Assembly: GCA_016930915.1 (NCBI GenBank)
Contig: JAFGFU010000005.1
Location: 62,001-126,000 of the forward strand
Length of the DNA stretch: 64,000 bases
Source of the DNA: Campylobacterales bacterium
GTDB lineage: Bacteria > Campylobacterota > Campylobacteria > Campylobacterales > Sulfurospirillaceae
Direction: 5' to 3'
This document shows, one piece after another, positions 1 to 62,947 of the stretch (position 1 is the first letter of the stretch; each line of letters begins with the position of its first letter). A program made the position numbers and the translations under genes. Under the pieces are notes generated by a model that was not told where the DNA came from, searched no databases, and saw only the letters and a list, made by a program, of their open reading frames with translations.

Positions 1-141
1 AAGATTTCTATCCTTAATAATTTGGAGCGAAGTGATGCCATTAACGAGAGGGTTTATACCAAAGTGTTGTATAAAAAAGCGACGGAGGCTATGGATGAGA
101 TAGTGGGGGATGTGGAGAGGTTTTTATGTCAAAAAAAATAA
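1..141 (+). CDS. C-terminal fragment of an unknown protein
   Basis: The reading frame is open from the first base and ends in TAA at 139-141, giving about 46 residues of a charged, probably helical tail (ERSDAINERV, then EAMDEIVGDVERFL). The start lies outside the window. I do not recognise the family. Its last 16 bases overlap the start of the next gene. The base composition is normal up to about position 120 and turns AT-rich just after, so the final residues (FLCQKK) may come from inserted DNA. A degraded copy of this tail lies at 1698-1757, on the other side of the next gene. Confidence 0.5.
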   Translation, partial: KISILNNLERSDAINERVYTKVLYKKATEAMDEIVGDVERFLCQKK

Positions 142-1625
142 ATATACTTATGCTTGATAATATGATGAATGCAAATTCTGAATTACTTTCAGACGATTGT
201 GTGAAAAAATATCTTGAATTAGAAGACATAAAATCTCAGGAATTAACTACTGTTCAGAGACTATGTCAATATCTAAAAACAACTTCTCTTTTATATCAAT
301 TCTATGAAAATTATTATTTGAATTATAAAATTCCGCAAATTGGAAAAGAATTTGATTTATTACGAATAGGTAGAGAATCCGTTGTCAATATTGAACTAAA
401 GTCAGGACAAGTTAGTGATGAAGAAGTCTTAACACAATTAAAAAGAAACTATTATTATTTATCTTTTTTAGGTAGAACAATACATTGTTACACTTTTATG
501 ACAGATGGTACACAAGATATATTATTTTATTTTGATGTAATAACTCAAGAATTACAACGGATTTCTGATAAGAATCATATTTTATACAACCTATATCATT
601 TAAATGATATGGAAGATACTACTATTGATTCTTTATTTGTTCCAAGTAACTACCTAATTTCTCCGTTTAATACGACAGATAAGTTTATTGAAAACCAATA
701 TTTTTTAACGCAACATCAAGAAGATATTAAAAAGGAAATAATTAAAGAAATAACTAGCAATAGTCAAAATAAAATATTTTCAATTTCAGGAACTGCTGGG
801 ACAGGAAAGACTTTATTGACATATGATATTGCTAAAGAATTACGTAATATTGGTAAGAGCGTAACAATAATTCATTGTGCTCAATTCAATAATGGAATTA
901 CAAAATTAAGAACACAATATCAATGGGATATTAGAACAATTAAAAACTATTCTATTTCGCCTTTATCCAATATTTTAATTGTTGATGAAGCGCAAAGGTT
1001 AGAAAAAAGTCAATTTGAAGCTCTTGTATCAATAGGTAATAAAACGATTATATTTTCACACGATGTTAATCAGCGTTTAAATAGAACAAATCAGGCACAA
1101 GAAGTTGTTGCTCTAATCAAATTAAATGCTCATAAATCACCATATGAATTATCACATAAAATAAGGCACAATAAAAGCCTTGCTTCTTTTTTAAAAAAAT
1201 TTTATGATTTGACTAAAATAACTACTGACACTTTAGTTTGCAAGGATTATGAAAATATTTTTTTCTATTATGCAAAAAATCTTAATGATGCACAGACATA
1301 TGTTTCATTTTTAATGACGAATGGTTGGGAATACATTTATTTGACGAATAGTCGTTATAATCAAGAATCGTTATCTCATTTAAAATTCAGTGATAATAGT
1401 GCTCACCAAGCAATTGGACAAGAATATGATAATGTCGTGGTAACAATCGATCAAAATTTCTTTTATAAAGAAAATAAGAAATTAGCTTATAGGTATGGCT
1501 GCTATTACAGTCCTTTAGAAACATTGTTTCAGGCAATAACACGTACTCGTAAAAAAATTATGTTTGTTATTATTAACAACAAAGAAGTTTATGAAAATTG
1601 TATAAGAATTATTGAAAAAAGGTGA
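126..1625 (+). CDS. Nuclease-helicase fusion (PD-(D/E)XK-like plus DUF2075/Schlafen-3-like ATPase)
   Basis: This 499-residue protein has two visible parts. The N-terminal part carries E75-F-D77 followed by E90-L-K92, the pattern of a PD-(D/E)XK nuclease such as the NERD type. The second part is a superfamily 1-like ATPase: Walker A GTAGTGKT at 222-229, Walker B LIVDEAQ at 284-290, and near the C-terminus QAITRTRKKIMFVI, which resembles helicase motif VI. That architecture matches DUF2075/Schlafen group 3-like helicases, a group found in phage-defence loci. A GGAGAGG site five bases upstream supports the ATG at 126. The gene is much richer in A+T than anything else in the window and contains none of the TTTACATGTAAA sites, both pointing to recent transfer. 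Nuclease activity and a defence role are inference. Confidence 0.75.
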   Translation: MSKKINILMLDNMMNANSELLSDDCVKKYLELEDIKSQELTTVQRLCQYLKTTSLLYQFYENYYLNYKIPQIGKEFDLLRIGRESVVNIELKSGQVSDEEVLTQLKRNYYYLSFLGRTIHCYTFMTDGTQDILFYFDVITQELQRISDKNHILYNLYHLNDMEDTTIDSLFVPSNYLISPFNTTDKFIENQYFLTQHQEDIKKEIIKEITSNSQNKIFSISGTAGTGKTLLTYDIAKELRNIGKSVTIIHCAQFNNGITKLRTQYQWDIRTIKNYSISPLSNILIVDEAQRLEKSQFEALVSIGNKTIIFSHDVNQRLNRTNQAQEVVALIKLNAHKSPYELSHKIRHNKSLASFLKKFYDLTKITTDTLVCKDYENIFFYYAKNLNDAQTYVSFLMTNGWEYIYLTNSRYNQESLSHLKFSDNSAHQAIGQEYDNVVVTIDQNFFYKENKKLAYRYGCYYSPLETLFQAITRTRKKIMFVIINNKEVYENCIRIIEKR

Positions 1626-1697
1626 TAGGCTACTTTATAAACAATCAGAAACTTCATTACTAGGAATCATTTTGTTTTACATGTAAAGGTTTAAATA

Positions 1698-1757
1698 GAA
1701 CGAAGTGAAGAGGTGGATGAAAGCGTAGAAGATGCGGAGTGGGTTTTTCTGAGGTAA
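1698..1757 (+). pseudogene. Remnant resembling the 3' end of the gene at 1-141
   Basis: A stretch of 19 sense codons and a stop reads ERSEEVDESVEDAEWVFLR. It resembles the end of the upstream partial gene: both contain ERS and an E-x-x-D-E-x-V-x-D-x-E pattern, and the DNA at 1731-1751 matches that at 109-128 with about three mismatches and one gap. The frame is closed just upstream by TAA, so it is not a gene by itself. I read it as the displaced original tail of the interrupted gene. Chance similarity of short acidic sequences is possible. Confidence 0.35.
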
Positions 1758-1772: not shown

Positions 1773-1801
1773 AGGGGGAGAGAAAAGGATAGGAGATAAA
1801 A

Positions 1802-2200
1802 ATGTTGAAAAAATCGGGGAAAGCGATTATTCGTAATCTGTTTAGAGATGTTTTAGAATCCTCTGAAGTTGAACTATCTGTGATTGAAAAATACATTGAC
1901 CCTGGCTATATCCAAAAGGTCGATGGCGTGATTTTGGATTATCATGGATTTATTGAACATATGAAAAAACAAAAGCAAGTGATTGAGGCGATGTCGGTTA
2001 CGTTTATCTCTATGGTTGAAGAGTCCGATACCGTTTTTACCAATCACATTGTAGTGGCTAAAAAGAAAAACAAAGAAGAACTGCACGTACACGTTATCGC
2101 CCAATTTACGCTTAAAGACGGGCGTTTAATCGCTTGTGATGAGCTAACGAGACTTTTAACGGGAAACGAAGAAGATCGAAACATTGGCTCTTGCCATTAA
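1802..2200 (+). CDS. SnoaL/NTF2-like small protein
   Basis: This 132-residue protein has the make-up of the SnoaL-like (nuclear transport factor 2) fold: N-terminal helices (SVIEKYIDPGYIQKVDG), then alternating strands ending in VHVIAQFTLKDGRLIACDELTRLL, the usual core of such domains. The family includes isomerases, hydrolases and non-catalytic binding proteins, so the substrate cannot be named. The start is supported by AGGAGA seven bases upstream. It stands alone between the inserted nuclease-helicase and the cytosine deaminase, apparently with its own promoter. Confidence 0.6.
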   Translation: MLKKSGKAIIRNLFRDVLESSEVELSVIEKYIDPGYIQKVDGVILDYHGFIEHMKKQKQVIEAMSVTFISMVEESDTVFTNHIVVAKKKNKEELHVHVIAQFTLKDGRLIACDELTRLLTGNEEDRNIGSCH

Positions 2201-2250
2201 TCATTACATGTAAAGAAGTTAAAACTTAACTCTTCAAAGTTTCATTGTCC

Positions 2251-2256
2251 TATAAT
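2251..2256 (+). promoter_or_regulatory. Probable -10 element of the cytosine deaminase gene
   Basis: A perfect TATAAT lies 36 bases before the start codon at 2292, in a 90-base gap after the previous gene. No convincing -35 box was seen. Confidence 0.45.
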
Positions 2257-2291
2257 ATAACGCAACCTGAAATATACGAAAAAGGCAAACC

Positions 2292-2729
2292 ATGGATACA
2301 TTTTTAGAAGCAGCCATAGAAGAAGCGCACAAGGGTTTGGAAGAGGGTGGCATACCCATTGGCTCGGTGCTGGTGATAGACGGTAAAATAGTAGGGCGTG
2401 GGCATAACCGAAGGGTTCAAAAAGGAAGTGCTATCTTGCATGCGGAGATGGACTGTTTGGAAAATGCGGGGCGTTTGAGTGCAGCTGATTATCGTAAAGC
2501 CACGCTTTATTCGACTTTATCGCCTTGCGATATGTGCAGTGGTGCCGTTTTACTGTATGGAATTCCAAAAGTCGTTATCGGTGAAAACCAAACCTTTTGT
2601 GGCCCAGAAGCGTATGTCAAATCCAGAGGTGTCGAGGTTGAAGTTCTCAACGACCCCAAATGCCGTGAGCTGATGGAGGCTTTTATAAAAAACAATCCAG
2701 AGCTTTGGAATGAAGATATTGGGGTGTAA
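2292..2729 (+). CDS. Yeast-type cytosine deaminase
   Basis: The enzyme should hydrolyse cytosine to uracil and ammonia for pyrimidine salvage in the cytoplasm. The 145 residues carry the zinc deaminase signature, HAEMDCLENAG (His ligand and catalytic Glu) and SPCDMCSGA (the two Cys ligands). The rest follows Saccharomyces Fcy1 as I remember it: GGIPIGSVL, GRGHNRRVQKGSA, TLYSTLSPCDMC, YGIPKVVIGEN and the C-terminal W-x-EDIG. That C-terminal helix closes the active site in yeast Fcy1 and separates it from tRNA adenosine deaminases (TadA) and guanine deaminases. This is not the CodA-type enzyme of E. coli. No permease gene is adjacent. Confidence 0.85.
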   Translation: MDTFLEAAIEEAHKGLEEGGIPIGSVLVIDGKIVGRGHNRRVQKGSAILHAEMDCLENAGRLSAADYRKATLYSTLSPCDMCSGAVLLYGIPKVVIGENQTFCGPEAYVKSRGVEVEVLNDPKCRELMEAFIKNNPELWNEDIGV

Positions 2730-2812
2730 CACGTTATAAGATAGTGTTTTTAAGAATCAAAGAAAGAGAAGATAAACATAAACTACTTTTTTGTAAAAAT
2801 AAGTATATACAT

Positions 2813-3991
2813 TTATGTTGAGGGGTATTTTTTAATCACAATGTAGGTAACAATGAGAATGCAGACAAGCTCAACAATAAAAAATATGCCGTAGTTTTGT
2901 GTGGAGACAATGATGCCAGCTCCCATAGCAGAAGCAATGCGTGTAAATGAAAAAAGGCTCGATTGTAGTGCGTAGTCGATGGCTTTGGAGGTTTGCCTTG
3001 CATAGTCCATCATCAAAGCAAAAATAATGGCCGAGGAAAATGAGATAGCAAGGGCGGTGAGGCTAATTGCTACAACGACTAAGCCCATGCTAAAACCGCA
3101 GTATTCCATGTACACTAAGATGGCGACACTTAGAGCATTAAAGCATGAAAAAACCACAAGAAGTCTTTTTTTTGCATAATATTTTCCTATGTAAGAAGCT
3201 AAAAAACCACCTAAAATTCCGATGATACCACCATAAATTCCGACCAGTAAAGCAACGTTATCAGGATTCATCTTTTTGCTAAGAAGATAAGGCTTGATAA
3301 AAATCCAAACCGCACTAATAAAAGCAAAATAAAATGCGACGATAATAAGCCAAATTCCGATATTTTTTTGTTTAAAAAACGATGAAATAATGCGAAATGA
3401 AAAGGATTCTATGAGAATCTTTTCGTCGTTTTCTGTGATGCATTTTAAAAACAGTAAAGCAATAAAAATCAAACCAGCCATGAACCAAAGGGTGTATTGC
3501 CAACCTATATGGTTATAAAAAAGAAGTAAAATACCTCCACCAAGGAGTAATGCTGTAAAAACGGCACTCATTTTATAACTTCCAGCAGCGATTCTTTCTT
3601 CTTTCTTGAAAACTTTAATCGCCAGAGCATTAAGGGGAATATCAATCAACGTTGCCACAAAAACGATAAGGCATATCATCATAAAAACAAGGCTGGTCTG
3701 ATGCTCTAAAGAGCATTCACCCAAGCCGATAAGTAAAAGTGCGTAAACGATACCAAGGAGACAAATCCACGTTTTGTAATGATTTTTTTTAAAAACGATG
3801 CGATCAATGGGCGGTGATAGTAGAAATTTGAGGACAGCTGAGAAGCCTACCATTTGAAAAAGTCCGATAAACGAAGCATCAAAGCCTCTCATCTGCAAAA
3901 TCATCGGCAAACCCATCATAAAAAAGATGGAGGGCGTCGTAAAAGCGGTAAACAAAAGTCCAAAGAGTATGTTTTTTTTAGCAAGAGACAT
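2813..3991 (-). CDS. MFS permease, RhtX/FptX-like siderophore transporter
   Basis: The 392-residue protein has about 12 hydrophobic segments and an MFS layout. The N-terminus (FTTPSIFFMMGLPMILQMRGFDA) and the PPIDR motif resemble the AmpG-related permeases RhtX and FptX, which carry siderophores or ferric siderophores through the inner membrane as single proteins. It is the last gene of a leftward operon with a TonB receptor, so import of the ligand delivered by that receptor is the natural role. Its start overlaps the end of the methyltransferase gene by 14 bases. AmpG-type muropeptide transport is the main alternative, made less likely by the context. Confidence 0.7.
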   Translation of the reverse strand: MSLAKKNILFGLLFTAFTTPSIFFMMGLPMILQMRGFDASFIGLFQMVGFSAVLKFLLSPPIDRIVFKKNHYKTWICLLGIVYALLLIGLGECSLEHQTSLVFMMICLIVFVATLIDIPLNALAIKVFKKEERIAAGSYKMSAVFTALLLGGGILLLFYNHIGWQYTLWFMAGLIFIALLFLKCITENDEKILIESFSFRIISSFFKQKNIGIWLIIVAFYFAFISAVWIFIKPYLLSKKMNPDNVALLVGIYGGIIGILGGFLASYIGKYYAKKRLLVVFSCFNALSVAILVYMEYCGFSMGLVVVAISLTALAISFSSAIIFALMMDYARQTSKAIDYALQSSLFSFTRIASAMGAGIIVSTQNYGIFFIVELVCILIVTYIVIKKYPST

Positions 3992-4994
3992 GATGAGCTT
4001 CTTTTTTGAGAATATGAACGGTTGTGGGCGTCATGGGCGTATCGTGTGATGTAAAGGTTTGTATTGGCTCAAAGCCTGCTTTGTTAAACATGACGGATAA
4101 TTCTGTGGGTTTAAAAATGCGTTTTCCTTGTAGATTTAAAAATAAAAAGTAGAAAAAACTATCGGTGTCATGGGAATTTGTTATATCAATTTCGACATGA
4201 GCACTGATTAAAATACCGTTTGGATTAAGAGCGTTGTACAGTTTTTCAATGACAGAGGTTGGATTTTCGAAAAAATAGAAGAGATTGCTGCACCAAATTA
4301 GATCGTATCCGTATCCAATGTCATCCATTTGTACATCGCCGCACAGTGTTGTCGTGCGTGATTTTAGAGCGTACTCTTCAATGTGCTCTTGCACGATTTC
4401 AATCACTTCGGGATAGTCAAAAAAGACGCCATGCCATGAAGGTCTGGTTTGGAGTATTTCAAGCCCGACGATGCCTGAAGCGCACCCGATGTCTAATATT
4501 TTTGCATTATCGGGCAAAGAAGGAAGGTGTTTGAGACACTTTAAGGCAACGTGCGAAATGAGGTTTTTTTGCTCTTGTTTTAAAAATTTTTTGGAAGCTT
4601 GCGCCCATCTTTGAGGATGCTTGGTGTGGATCATCTCTTTATTGCCTTCTTTCAAAAGTTTTTCAAGCATCTTTACACCTTGATGTAGCATGGCTTTTCG
4701 GTGCAAGAAAACATCGCCACAATACTTTGGGGCATCGAAAATAAAAAAAGTTTTTGTAATGTCCGTATTGGCGTAAAAAGAAGCGTCTTCTTCAATGAGC
4801 TCTAACATCACTAAGGCATCTAAGAAGATTTTTGTGTTGGTAGGATCGAATGCGAGTATCAGGGCTAAGTCTTCCGCCGTGCATTTTTGCTCTTCAATGC
4901 GTTGAAAAAGCTTTACATGTAAAGCGATGGCAAGCACTTCGATTTGATAAGGCACGAGTAACATCGTGAGGTAAGAATTGAGTGTTTTTGGCAT
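3978..4994 (-). CDS. SAM-dependent O-methyltransferase-like protein
   Basis: The 338-residue protein resembles class I O-methyltransferases of the acetylserotonin/hydroxyneurosporene type. Residues 1-100 form a winged-helix dimerisation region (VLAIALHVKLFQRIEE). The SAM-binding motif is ILDIGCASGIVGLEIL, followed by FFDYPEVIEIV and DLIWCSNLFYFFE. It sits between a TonB receptor and a siderophore-type permease, nine bases from the former and overlapping the latter. A role in modifying an imported siderophore or making a small metal ligand is inference. No other biosynthetic gene such as an NRPS is present nearby, so the substrate is unknown. Confidence 0.7.
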   Translation of the reverse strand: MPKTLNSYLTMLLVPYQIEVLAIALHVKLFQRIEEQKCTAEDLALILAFDPTNTKIFLDALVMLELIEEDASFYANTDITKTFFIFDAPKYCGDVFLHRKAMLHQGVKMLEKLLKEGNKEMIHTKHPQRWAQASKKFLKQEQKNLISHVALKCLKHLPSLPDNAKILDIGCASGIVGLEILQTRPSWHGVFFDYPEVIEIVQEHIEEYALKSRTTTLCGDVQMDDIGYGYDLIWCSNLFYFFENPTSVIEKLYNALNPNGILISAHVEIDITNSHDTDSFFYFLFLNLQGKRIFKPTELSVMFNKAGFEPIQTFTSHDTPMTPTTVHILKKEAHHVSC

Positions 4995-5003
4995 GGTGTT
5001 TCC

Positions 5004-6995
5004 TTAAAATCGATAGGCAAATTTGACGCCGATTTCACGACCTTCACGTACGATGGTTGTGGTACCATTCATGTAAGCATTACGTGCGTTATACTCTTTG
5101 TCAAAAAGATTATGGGCGTAGAGATAAACATCGTAGGCTTTGGTTTCGTAACCAATTTTGGTATCGACAAGCGTATAAGCATCTTGAGAATAGCGGTTGG
5201 CTTTATCGAAATAGGTTTTTCCATACCCATTGACGTCACATCTAGCGTAATAACCGCTTGCATTTCGGTATTGCATTCCGACGTTAAAATTGTATTTTGG
5301 AGCAAAGGTTGCTTTATTTGCATCATAATTTCCAGCAGTGTCAGAAAAATTGTCGTATGAAGTATCGTTAATCCCACCACTTGCAAAAAAGGTCACAGTA
5401 GGGTTTAACAAGGCTTCCAGTTCAACTTCTAAGCCTTTTGAAGTTGCTTTGGCAGCATTGACAATATAAACAACTCCTCCTGTACGCATTTCTTCAACTT
5501 GCATATCGTTGATTTTCATGAGGTAAATATCGGCATTGAGTTTTAGTGTATCGTTTAAAAACATCCCTTTGTATCCTAGTTCATAAGAGATGAGGTTTTC
5601 TTCGTCATAAATTTGTTTACCAGTGGGAGCAAAAGGGTTGAATCCACCCGATCGGTACCCTTTGGCAACCGTAGCATAAGAGATATTTTTTGCATTAATC
5701 GTATATTGTAATGAGAGTTTAGGTGAAATACTATTCCATTGATCATCTAAATGAATGTTTGAAGCATCAACATCCATATTTTTCTTTTCAACATCGTAAC
5801 GGATACCCGTATTGAGTGTCCATTTTTCGCTTAGTGGATGAATGACATTGGTAAAAAGTCCTAGACTTTTTTGCGTCAAATCTTGAGGTTTTGAATTGGC
5901 TCCTGTTGGATCAGCAAGGGTGATGATTTTCGTATGTAAATCATCCTTTTCTTTATCGAGATAAAGACCAGAGATGAGTTTTGTATCGGAAAATGTGGTT
6001 TCGTAGCGAAGTTCTTGGGAAAGCGTGCTGTATACATTGTCTTTGAATGTATTCTGAATAGTGGTAGGTAATAAATCTGCATCTAAAACGACGTTATCTT
6101 TATGTTCTCTCCATGTCGTAATAGAAGTAATTTTCTCATCATCATTAAGATGGTAATCAACATTCAATGCAATACTTGTTGTAGATGGTTCTGAAGAACT
6201 TGGTAAATTGGAACTAACTTTAGATGAGGTGCTCGTTGCTTTAATCCAATCGTGTGCACCATTGTTGTTTTTACTTTTTGAAGCAATCAGAGAAATATCA
6301 AGATTTTCCGTAGGCGTATAACGCAGTGTTATTTTCCCCGCATTGTTTTCTTTAAAGTTTACGTATTCATTGGTAAGTGTATTTTTGATATTACCATCTT
6401 TTTCGTTGTGTTGATACGCAATCGCTAAATAAAGTGTGTCTTCAGCAATGGGACCTGAGACGTTGATTCCGTACAAGCGTTTTCCATCACTTCCTATCGT
6501 TGTATACAGCTTCCCTCGTGCTTCGTTATTTGGCTTTTTTGTGATGACATTGATAACGCCTGCTTCCGAATTTTTACCATACAATGTGCCTTGTGGTCCT
6601 CGTAAGACTTCGATGCGCTCAACATCTTCGAGTGCATCGGCATAACCAAAACTATTCATTGTGGGTACGCCATCCACGTAAAGGCTCACGGGTGTTGAAA
6701 AAGAGAGCACATTGGCGCTCAATCCCCGCATTGAAGGTGGAGTAAGCCCTTGTTGTCCTGTATTAAAGAGCATTAAATTAGGTGTATATTTGGCGATGTC
6801 GTCTAAAGATTCGATGGATTTATCTTCTAGATCAAGATCATCAAAAACAGACATACTAATGGGAACATTTTGAACATCTTCCTTGCTTTTTTGTGCCGTT
6901 ACGGTAATACTTTCAAGGTTGGTTGTCTGTGCTATAGCTTGACTTATACAAAGAGATGTTGCAATGGATAAAGAAAGCGTCGTTTTGAAATTCAT
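5004..6995 (-). CDS. TonB-dependent siderophore receptor
   Basis: This 663-residue outer-membrane protein has a signal peptide ending near AIAQ, then a TonB-box-like stretch (LESITVTAQ) and the plug domain (VPISMSVF, SMRGL, VYVDGVP-like LYVDGVPTM, VERIEVLRGPQGTLYGKN). The rest is a beta-barrel ending in FAYRF with the usual C-terminal Phe. It should import a ferric siderophore using TonB energy. It is preceded by a DUF2798 gene that overlaps its start by four bases and is followed by a methyltransferase and a permease. A Fur-like palindrome stands just upstream of the operon, so iron repression is likely. The ligand cannot be told from sequence. Confidence 0.88.
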   Translation of the reverse strand: MNFKTTLSLSIATSLCISQAIAQTTNLESITVTAQKSKEDVQNVPISMSVFDDLDLEDKSIESLDDIAKYTPNLMLFNTGQQGLTPPSMRGLSANVLSFSTPVSLYVDGVPTMNSFGYADALEDVERIEVLRGPQGTLYGKNSEAGVINVITKKPNNEARGKLYTTIGSDGKRLYGINVSGPIAEDTLYLAIAYQHNEKDGNIKNTLTNEYVNFKENNAGKITLRYTPTENLDISLIASKSKNNNGAHDWIKATSTSSKVSSNLPSSSEPSTTSIALNVDYHLNDDEKITSITTWREHKDNVVLDADLLPTTIQNTFKDNVYSTLSQELRYETTFSDTKLISGLYLDKEKDDLHTKIITLADPTGANSKPQDLTQKSLGLFTNVIHPLSEKWTLNTGIRYDVEKKNMDVDASNIHLDDQWNSISPKLSLQYTINAKNISYATVAKGYRSGGFNPFAPTGKQIYDEENLISYELGYKGMFLNDTLKLNADIYLMKINDMQVEEMRTGGVVYIVNAAKATSKGLEVELEALLNPTVTFFASGGINDTSYDNFSDTAGNYDANKATFAPKYNFNVGMQYRNASGYYARCDVNGYGKTYFDKANRYSQDAYTLVDTKIGYETKAYDVYLYAHNLFDKEYNARNAYMNGTTTIVREGREIGVKFAYRF

Positions 6996-7231
6996 GCTCT
7001 TCTCTCTTCGTGTACAATTAATCTATGAACAAATCTTTTGACGGATGGAAGAATCACGAGCACAATAGGAAAAGCAATCAAAAAAGCCCTCCAGTAAGCT
7101 TGAAGCCATTGATGGATAAAGTGGGATGACCACCCTAAGTTAAACCACGTAATAATCAAGCTCATAAGCCCCGTCATAATCAGTGCCATGATAAAAGAGA
7201 AGAGCAAACTCTCATATTTTTTGGAAATCAT
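6992..7231 (-). CDS. DUF2798 small membrane protein
   Basis: The 79-residue protein has two membrane helices (LLFSFIMALIMTGLMSLIITW and WRAFLIAFPIVLVILPSV) with the spacing of DUF2798 proteins. Their function is not known, but they are often found with iron-uptake genes. It is the first gene of the leftward operon and overlaps the receptor start by an ATGA. The Fur-like palindrome lies about 50 bases upstream of its start. Confidence 0.7.
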   Translation of the reverse strand: MISKKYESLLFSFIMALIMTGLMSLIITWFNLGWSSHFIHQWLQAYWRAFLIAFPIVLVILPSVKRFVHRLIVHEERRA

Positions 7232-7283
7232 ATTTGAACCTTTAATGTGAATTTTATAGAAGAAAGTCTATTATTTATATATG

Positions 7284-7298
7284 TGATATTCAATATCA
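7284..7298. promoter_or_regulatory. Fur-box-like palindrome in divergent promoter region
   Basis: TGATATTCAATATCA is a perfect 7-1-7 inverted repeat. It differs from the Fur 7-1-7 consensus TGATAATnATTATCA at one position in each half. It lies between the leftward siderophore operon (start at 7231) and the rightward AraC gene (start at 7343), so one bound dimer could repress both. Binding by Fur is inferred from the match and the gene context. Confidence 0.6.
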
Positions 7299-7342
7299 AA
7301 AATATGATAAACGGTTTAATTTTCTATGCTAAAAGGAAAAAG

Positions 7343-8284
7343 ATGCAGTATTTGTCGTTAAACAATATCATCAACTTCAATTTAGATTCTCAGCGCAGTG
7401 CTATTATTCAAAACAGTTTTCCAAAAGAGATTGGTGTGGATTATATGGAACATGTTTGTTTGCAAGAAGATCTTTTTTTTATGAAAACGGATTATCGTTT
7501 TTTGCAAAAAACACGTATCGAATCAAAGCAAAATGAGCGAAAATTTGTCATAACCTTTTCTTTGAAAGGCAAGGGGAGTTATACCAATCGTGATGATGCT
7601 CAAGTGATTCCTTTTCAAGAGGGATTTACGACTATCTCACTTTTAGATGAGACCGAGGGATTTCGTGATTTTCATACCAAAGAGCTTTCTCAAGTGAGGA
7701 TTATTCTAAGAGAAAATTTTTTAACACGTCATCTTAAAGAGAGTGTGCAAGAGAAGTACCTTTACAACAGTTCCCCTCATCTTAATCTTGTCAAATTTGC
7801 ACCGACTGCTATTGCTTCACAATGGGTGATTCAAGAGATATTTCGTTCTCCTTATCAAGGGGAATTGGCATCTTGTTATCTTCAAAGTAAAGTTTTAGAA
7901 CTGCTCTCTTTTGAACTGAGTCATTTATCGGATAAAGAATCATCTAAACAGAGTATGTTAGATGCGTATGATAAAGAGCGAATTTATAAAGCAAAAGAGA
8001 TTTTGCTTAAAAGTATGCAAAGCCCGCCTTCGATTGGTGAATTAGCAAAATTAGTGCATTTAAATGAAACAAAACTCAAGGTAGGTTTTAAAGAAATTTT
8101 CCAGATGAGTCCCTATCAAGTAGTGTTAAAATATAAAATGCACTCTGCTAAGAAAATGTTAGAATCTGGGGATTTTAATATTAATGAAGTGGCATCCAAA
8201 ACAGGTTATAAATATGCGAATAACTTTACACATGCCTTTCTAAAAGAGTTTGGTGTTTTACCAAAAGCGTTTAAAATACGATAA
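7343..8284 (+). CDS. AraC-family regulator, PchR-like (first of two)
   Basis: About 313 residues; the C-terminal 100 carry the two helix-turn-helix units of AraC proteins (SIGELAKLVHLNETKLKVGFKE, then INEVASKTGYKYANNFTHAF). The N-terminal region would bind the effector. PchR-type regulators sense a ferric siderophore and activate its receptor genes, which fits the position between two TonB-receptor operons. I place the start at 7343 (MQYLSLNN), where AAAAGG precedes the ATG, and not at the GTG 96 bases upstream, which would overlap the Fur-like site. Confidence 0.75.
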   Translation: MQYLSLNNIINFNLDSQRSAIIQNSFPKEIGVDYMEHVCLQEDLFFMKTDYRFLQKTRIESKQNERKFVITFSLKGKGSYTNRDDAQVIPFQEGFTTISLLDETEGFRDFHTKELSQVRIILRENFLTRHLKESVQEKYLYNSSPHLNLVKFAPTAIASQWVIQEIFRSPYQGELASCYLQSKVLELLSFELSHLSDKESSKQSMLDAYDKERIYKAKEILLKSMQSPPSIGELAKLVHLNETKLKVGFKEIFQMSPYQVVLKYKMHSAKKMLESGDFNINEVASKTGYKYANNFTHAFLKEFGVLPKAFKIR

Positions 8285-37968: not shown

Positions 37969-38009
37969 TTTTTTCCTTTTGGTGAATCAAAAATAAGGTA
38001 AAACTCTTT

Positions 38010-38059
38010 TACATGTAAAGATTTATAACGCTTTTAGGCTAAAAAGTGTTTTACATGTA
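38010..38059. repeat. Pair of TTTACATGTAAAG palindromes in an intergenic region
   Basis: Two copies of TTTTACATGTAAAGATT lie 42 bases apart in the gap between the divergent msrB and TonB-receptor genes. They match the window-wide palindrome. Their place upstream of both genes would also suit an operator, but the same motif inside genes argues against a simple repressor site. Confidence 0.7.
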
Positions 38060-62614: not shown

Positions 62615-62947
62615 ATGACACCTATTTCTTTACATGTAAACGATGCAACGGTCCCTTTTATAACCTACACGCACGATGGAATTGAGTATATTGAGTTTGA
62701 TACGTCGATGTGCATTCCCCCAGAACCGATGGTCAATGCCATGTTGGCGTTGGAGCTTTTAGATACACCTCAAAAAAAAGTTGTGATGATTAACCATCGC
62801 TCTCCTGTGGGGCTTTTAGCCAAAGTGAGTGATTTTTATGACATTGAGGTTATTGAACTTGAAGGAGGAAAGCAAAAGTTGATTTTCTCTTACAAAGAGG
62901 GTGCGAGTAATAAGGCTGATTTAAGTCAAAAGCATTGTGCGGGATAA
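62615..62947 (+). CDS. DUF2249-like small protein
   Basis: The 110-residue protein looks like a TusA/DUF2249-type fold: MCIPPEPMVNAMLALELLDTPQKKVVMINHRSPVGLLAKV followed by IEVIELEGGKQKLIFSY. In this family a Cys-Pro or Pro-Pro motif leads into the first helix; here it is CIPPEP. Such proteins often sit beside nitric-oxide-related haem proteins. It is followed at four bases by a multi-helix membrane protein, probably a functional partner. AAAAGGATG precedes the ATG. Confidence 0.6.
   Translation: MTPISLHVNDATVPFITYTHDGIEYIEFDTSMCIPPEPMVNAMLALELLDTPQKKVVMINHRSPVGLLAKVSDFYDIEVIELEGGKQKLIFSYKEGASNKADLSQKHCAG

Follow-up and report, generated by a model that had tools for sequence, protein, structure and literature searches.

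The window analysed here is a stretch of 64,000 nucleotides from the genome of a Campylobacterales bacterium of the family Sulfurospirillaceae (assembly GCA_016930915.1, contig JAFGFU010000005.1, positions 62,001 to 126,000). Close to its left end is an open reading frame of 499 amino acids, on the forward strand, which we refer to as nhi (Table 1). It lies immediately behind cobB, only the 3' end of which falls within the window. The complete cobB gene is at L002 13440-14141 (an L002 position is the window position plus 14000), so that it starts about 560 bases to the left of the window, and when we inspected the 14 kb on that side we found that it comes directly after metH; both genes were named from their sequences. 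As the original prediction stated, nhi is an AT-rich gene that begins inside the end of the gene upstream: with the cobB stop codon at 139-141 and nhi starting from an ATG at 126, the two reading frames overlap by 16 bp. The insert supplies the final codons of cobB, which encode CQKK in the window genome versus EQ or RE in sister genomes. The composition of nhi is foreign. Its GC content (26.3%, with 16.6% at third codon positions) is the lowest among the 39 long open reading frames (at least 200 amino acids) in the window, which as a whole has 38.8% GC, while the values for cobB are 47.2% and 50.2%.

Table 1. Features of the cobB–deaminase interval in the window, and cargo genes in the same slot of other genomes of the genus.
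Feature	Position	Strand	Basis or remark
cobB 3' end (Sir2-family NAD-dependent deacylase)	1-141	+	Stop codon 139-141; orthologue found across the genus
GGAGAGG, putative ribosome-binding site in conserved cobB tail	114-120	+	Sequence; 5 nt before the nhi ATG; presumed use
nhi/abiO-type gene, 499-aa nuclease-helicase	126-1625	+	Full-length PADLOC AbiO and Nhi profile matches
Predicted N-terminal PD-(D/E)xK nuclease domain, residues 1-165	126-620	+	AlphaFold pLDDT 92 (domain folded alone); structural matches; invariant D77/E90/K92
Nuclease motif D77...E90-x-K92	354-401	+	Invariant in 71 sequences
C-terminal SF1 helicase, residues about 190-497	693-1616	+	Pfam SLFN-g3_helicase and Viral_helicase1; structural matches; motifs
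Walker A	789-809	+	GKT is residues 226-228
DEAQR motif	984-998	+	D287, E288, R291
R473	1542-1544	+	Helicase motif residue
Degenerate second cobB 3' end	1648-1748	+	cobB from about codon 174 to its end, with internal deletion; also in G002 and G016
SnoaL-like small protein	1802-2200	+	Whole at the site only in G000 (window genome), G002 and G016; G015 has traces
Cytidine/deoxycytidylate-type deaminase, conserved right flank	2292-2729	+	Pfam dCMP_cyt_deam_1
Cargo gene, G005, 436 aa	L052 9808-11118		No Pfam or PADLOC match
Cargo gene, G006, 543 aa	L053 10199-11830		No Pfam or PADLOC match
Cargo gene, G016, 193 aa	L010 9821-10402		No Pfam or PADLOC match
Cargo gene, G008, 212 aa	L048 11318-11956		No Pfam or PADLOC match

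The Nhi protein matches two PADLOC models of phage defence proteins over almost its whole length (residues 4-496): AbiO (PDLC02350; 480 bits, E = 1.6e-144) and Nhi (PDLC02372; 476 bits, E = 3e-143). By these matches it is a full-length member of a family that is already known. The original prediction had expected a single-gene defence module of a new kind; instead, the protein is a standard Nhi/AbiO member, and each of the 71 homologues in our alignment, which came from viral contigs and a wide range of phyla, also hits both models. Using the alignment as the query we found 242 relatives in genome contigs and 20 in viral contigs, whereas single-sequence searches of the genome and viral contigs returned no Nhi relatives because the peptide patterns they used were too strict. 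Ten residues are invariant in the alignment (D77, E90, K92, G225, G227, K228, D287, E288, R291 and R473), and the E90/K92 pair and the GKT motif that had been singled out beforehand are present in the window protein and invariant or nearly so across the family.

AlphaFold models the whole protein with a pLDDT of 89.9. The structural matches of the N-terminal domain are nearly all PD-(D/E)xK nucleases, each of them modest (Z < 8)–for example, BsaXI at 7.8, an HsdR subunit at 7.0, the La Crosse virus endonuclease at 6.7 and Hjc at 6.3–and the top Foldseek rank goes to the Cas4-like protein ACE1. In Pfam this domain hits no recognised family (NERD appears only at E = 0.03), a phmmer search of PDB sequences with the window protein gave no match, and a profile search of the same sequences retrieved AAA and SF1 ATPase cores only. 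Single matches are weak, but since the list of matches agrees and the D-E-K triad is invariant, the N-terminal domain is clearly assignable to the PD-(D/E)xK nucleases, as a predicted fold with a predicted activity. The outcome that would have counted against a nuclease, a model without a nuclease fold, did not occur. The helicase part resembles SF1 helicases more closely, with Z scores of up to 16.3 (HelD, DSH9, UvrD, SLFN and Dda). Judged from sequence and model, the protein has the composition of an Nhi/AbiO enzyme: an N-terminal nuclease with conserved catalytic residues, and an SF1 helicase with Walker A and B intact.

Plasmids of Enterococcus, Lactococcus, Providencia and Pantoea carry Nhi homologues, as do prophages. 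In a phylogenetic tree the window protein clusters with Campylobacterota homologues (100% SH-aLRT for five rows). Another Campylobacterota homologue, on L081, falls among Pseudomonadota, a placement that fits transfer of nhi between phyla without proving it. The closest homologue (58% identity) is on L078 (CAMCYD010000189.1), which is titled as a Helicobacter pylori PMSS1 MAG but is probably a mislabelled metagenome bin. A more distant one (47% identity; L076 3995-5476) is near the end of a Helicobacter pullorum prophage (BK070132.1), where its neighbours are a phage DNA transposase and a regulator, and is probably carried by a transposable prophage. By eye, we found no partner gene common to the neighbourhoods of the homologues in the window genome, in G022 and in six annotated plasmid or prophage records, so at the neighbourhoods inspected nhi stands as a single gene. 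On the Lactococcus lactis plasmid p14B4 (L074) the homologue (1779-3389) is close to the plasmid's ssb gene (4266-4721), which is of interest because sensitivity to Nhi reportedly depends on the single-strand-binding protein (SSB) of the phage.

Every one of the 24 genomes of the genus has cobB or a fragment of it, and only the window genome has nhi at this site; G022 has a copy with 57% identity at another location. Among 22 genomes whose cobB surroundings we compared, 13 keep both flanks, cobB on the left and the deaminase gene on the right. The distances between the flanks in these 13 genomes are 79, 655, 739, 831, 1395, 1889, 2124, 2166, 2295, 3150, 3709, 5804 and 6124 bp, and the intervals contain 30 open reading frames belonging to 27 families. 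The 79-bp interval, in G010, is an empty site, and the slot is occupied in the other 12. The interval between cobB and the deaminase gene is therefore a hypervariable slot: its flanking core genes stay constant, its cargo differs, and relatives include an empty version. In a limited literature search we found no earlier description of it. This comparison supports the proposal that nhi occupies an insertion slot at a gene end: sister genomes keep the flanks without nhi, and the opposite pattern, with the gene at the same place everywhere and of normal composition, was not seen. An alternative is that this is an ordinary variable intergenic region in which genes turn over no faster than elsewhere in these genomes. 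Judged from this interval and the metH–cobB gap just upstream of it, we consider this reading unlikely, given the presence of 27 families between two conserved genes in 13 genomes, the existence of a nearly empty version, and the near constancy of the metH–cobB gap, which measures 310 bp in G010 but 14-15 bp in the other seven of the eight genomes that allowed a measurement.

Downstream of nhi there is a second, degenerate copy of the cobB 3' end. The cobB tail at 94-126 matches positions 1716-1748 at 23 of 33 bases, better than anywhere else in the window and better than in any of 2000 shuffles. The complete copy (1648-1748) aligns to cobB with a score of 30.5, whereas none of 500 shuffles scored above 20; it is longer than the original prediction could see, because its first part matches a portion of cobB to the left of the window. 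The copy is thus real, but the idea that the insertion duplicated the gene end fails. According to that idea, nhi arrived by an integrase-like event that copied the end of cobB, so that 109-128 and 1731-1751 would be the two ends of one element, and a cobB tail and a diverged copy do flank the gene. However, G002 and G016 share this remnant, including its internal deletion, directly before the SnoaL-like gene, and have different cargo between the remnant and cobB. The nhi insertion therefore did not make the copy, and we reject it as the origin. A recent target duplication would also have diverged less than this copy has. The repeat is an old and degenerate one that several genomes have in common, and the slot of the window genome contains no integrase or other recombinase of the kind that gene-end insertion of the integrase type calls for. 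We regard this origin as highly improbable. The remnant either was in place before nhi arrived or moved together with the SnoaL-like gene.

No integrase or recombinase reading frame lies between cobB and the deaminase gene in the window genome, which is why the route by which nhi entered has to be inferred. Pieces of cobB in other genomes point to one. The slots of G015 and G017 both contain shorter pieces. A second cobB is found in G007, 5.4 kb downstream of the first, and lacks the first 28 codons. At 89% identity to the resident copy and 90% identity to the cobB of G006, this 5'-truncated copy is as unlike its resident counterpart as the gene of another species; it shares an identical run of 129 bp with the resident copy. 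A foreign segment that was imported together with a cobB gene, and then underwent recombination or gene conversion, would be expected to leave such a pattern. Cargo is likely to be exchanged through homologous recombination anchored in cobB: it would be swapped by recombination in the flanks, with cobB serving on the left, and partial cobB copies would be left behind. In G007 the stretch between the two copies (L051, oriented coordinates 753-1439 and 6816-7418) contains a transposase-like gene and also two long open reading frames, whose homologues are between cobB and the deaminase gene in G012.

We also examined what the slot carries in other genomes. The recognisable cargo in G009 is type IIG restriction-modification, accompanied by a helicase and by a T5orf172-type protein that is GIY-YIG-like, and in G020 it is an SieB-like exclusion protein. 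Pairs named from sequence resemblance as nucleotidyltransferase/HEPN-like are present in G003 and G004, and also in G002, G011, G014, G015 and G023, where the right flank was not found. By resemblance, then, the cargo includes defence or toxin-antitoxin-like genes. Five cargos have no Pfam or PADLOC match, namely one of 161 amino acids in G004 and those in G005, G006, G008 and G016. The last four (Table 1) are candidates for unknown defence genes. More broadly, we suggest tentatively, and with rather more doubt than belief, that the cobB 3' end is a genus-wide slot where homologous recombination, with no integrase involved, exchanges small cassettes, some of them bringing a cobB tail along, and that several unrecognised single genes in it–these four, together with genes of 527 amino acids in G014 and 496 amino acids in G013–are undescribed phage-defence genes.

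A separate feature of the window genome is the 12-bp palindrome TTTACATGTAAA, which occurs at 681 sites in its 2.23 Mb (control, 0). There are 15 exact sites in the window, for example at 1676-1687, 4912-4923, 38008-38019 and 62629-62640, and when one mismatch is allowed there are 27, versus 0.6 expected. All 24 genomes of the genus contain it, at 14 to 792 sites per genome, and genomes from other families of the order have 0 or 1; about three-quarters of the sites are in coding sequence. It resembles a highly iterated palindrome such as HIP1 of cyanobacteria, or an uptake-type signal. In a text search of the literature, the papers that contained the string were unrelated.

Taken together, we are confident that nhi encodes an anti-phage enzyme of the Nhi/AbiO type that was acquired horizontally into the hypervariable slot between cobB and the deaminase gene. 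The defence assignment, which agrees with the original suggestion of a plausible anti-phage protein and which the full-length family match makes likely, draws on that match, on the intact motifs, on the sporadic occurrence of the gene, on its carriage by plasmids and prophages, and on the company it keeps in the slot. That it is instead an ordinary helicase-nuclease of DNA repair, as the resemblance of its helicase core to RecD2, UvrD, Dda and Dna2 might suggest, is very improbable in view of the full-length match to defence models, its patchy distribution within the genus, its mobile relatives and its foreign composition. The staphylococcal Nhi is described as a nuclease-helicase that acts from a single gene, nicking phage DNA and unwinding it, and variation in the phage SSB sets the sensitivity; protection from phage and SSB-dependent sensitivity have been published for the staphylococcal protein only (PMC12904381). 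It protects without abortive infection (PMC11811056). Because all the motifs are intact, the published mechanism is our best guess for the window protein too. By analogy, the SF1 helicase would load onto phage replication intermediates and unwind them, the N-terminal nuclease would nick or degrade them, and phage replication would stop, with the phage SSB deciding which phages are sensitive. Expression would come from read-through of cobB transcription, with GGAGAGG in the cobB tail acting as the ribosome-binding site.

Both the protein family and the kind of genomic slot are already known. The prototype of single-gene nuclease-helicase immunity is reportedly SERP2475 of Staphylococcus epidermidis, from work by Bari et al. 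in 2022. The window protein appears to share its organisation, with an N-terminal nuclease and an SF1 helicase in a single gene, and like it belongs to a family that occurs sporadically on plasmids and prophages; unlike the staphylococcal gene, nhi is chromosomal, in a cobB-end slot of a member of the Campylobacterota, and its activity is a predicted one. AbiO of Lactococcus is its best profile match, and in a survey the same proteins were assigned to either AbiO or Nhi; AbiO systems were reported mostly from plasmids (PMC11811056), in contrast to the chromosomal location of nhi. The helicase domain is like that of the Schlafen proteins SLFN11 and SLFN14 (Pfam SLFN-g3_helicase), whereas the nuclease part is, in the model, a PD-(D/E)xK domain. 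The gene thus adds to the Nhi/AbiO family a member from Campylobacterota whose model gives a clear nuclease assignment. The slot is more useful than the gene. It is compact and almost always occupied, and since it holds unknown single genes beside known defence types, it can serve in practice as a list of candidate defence genes, for a genus in which phage biology is poorly known. As a gene-end hotspot it is less novel than had been proposed, because it is well established that defence genes occupy slots between core genes, with 41 hotspots defined by their flanking core genes in Escherichia coli (PMC10121019). The cobB–deaminase slot resembles these in its conserved flanks and interchangeable cargo that includes defence genes; it differs in that its cargo is small (0.7-6 kb) and mostly without integrases, and in its occupancy, which is 12 of 13 genomes compared to a median of 8% for the E. 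coli hotspots (PMC10121019).
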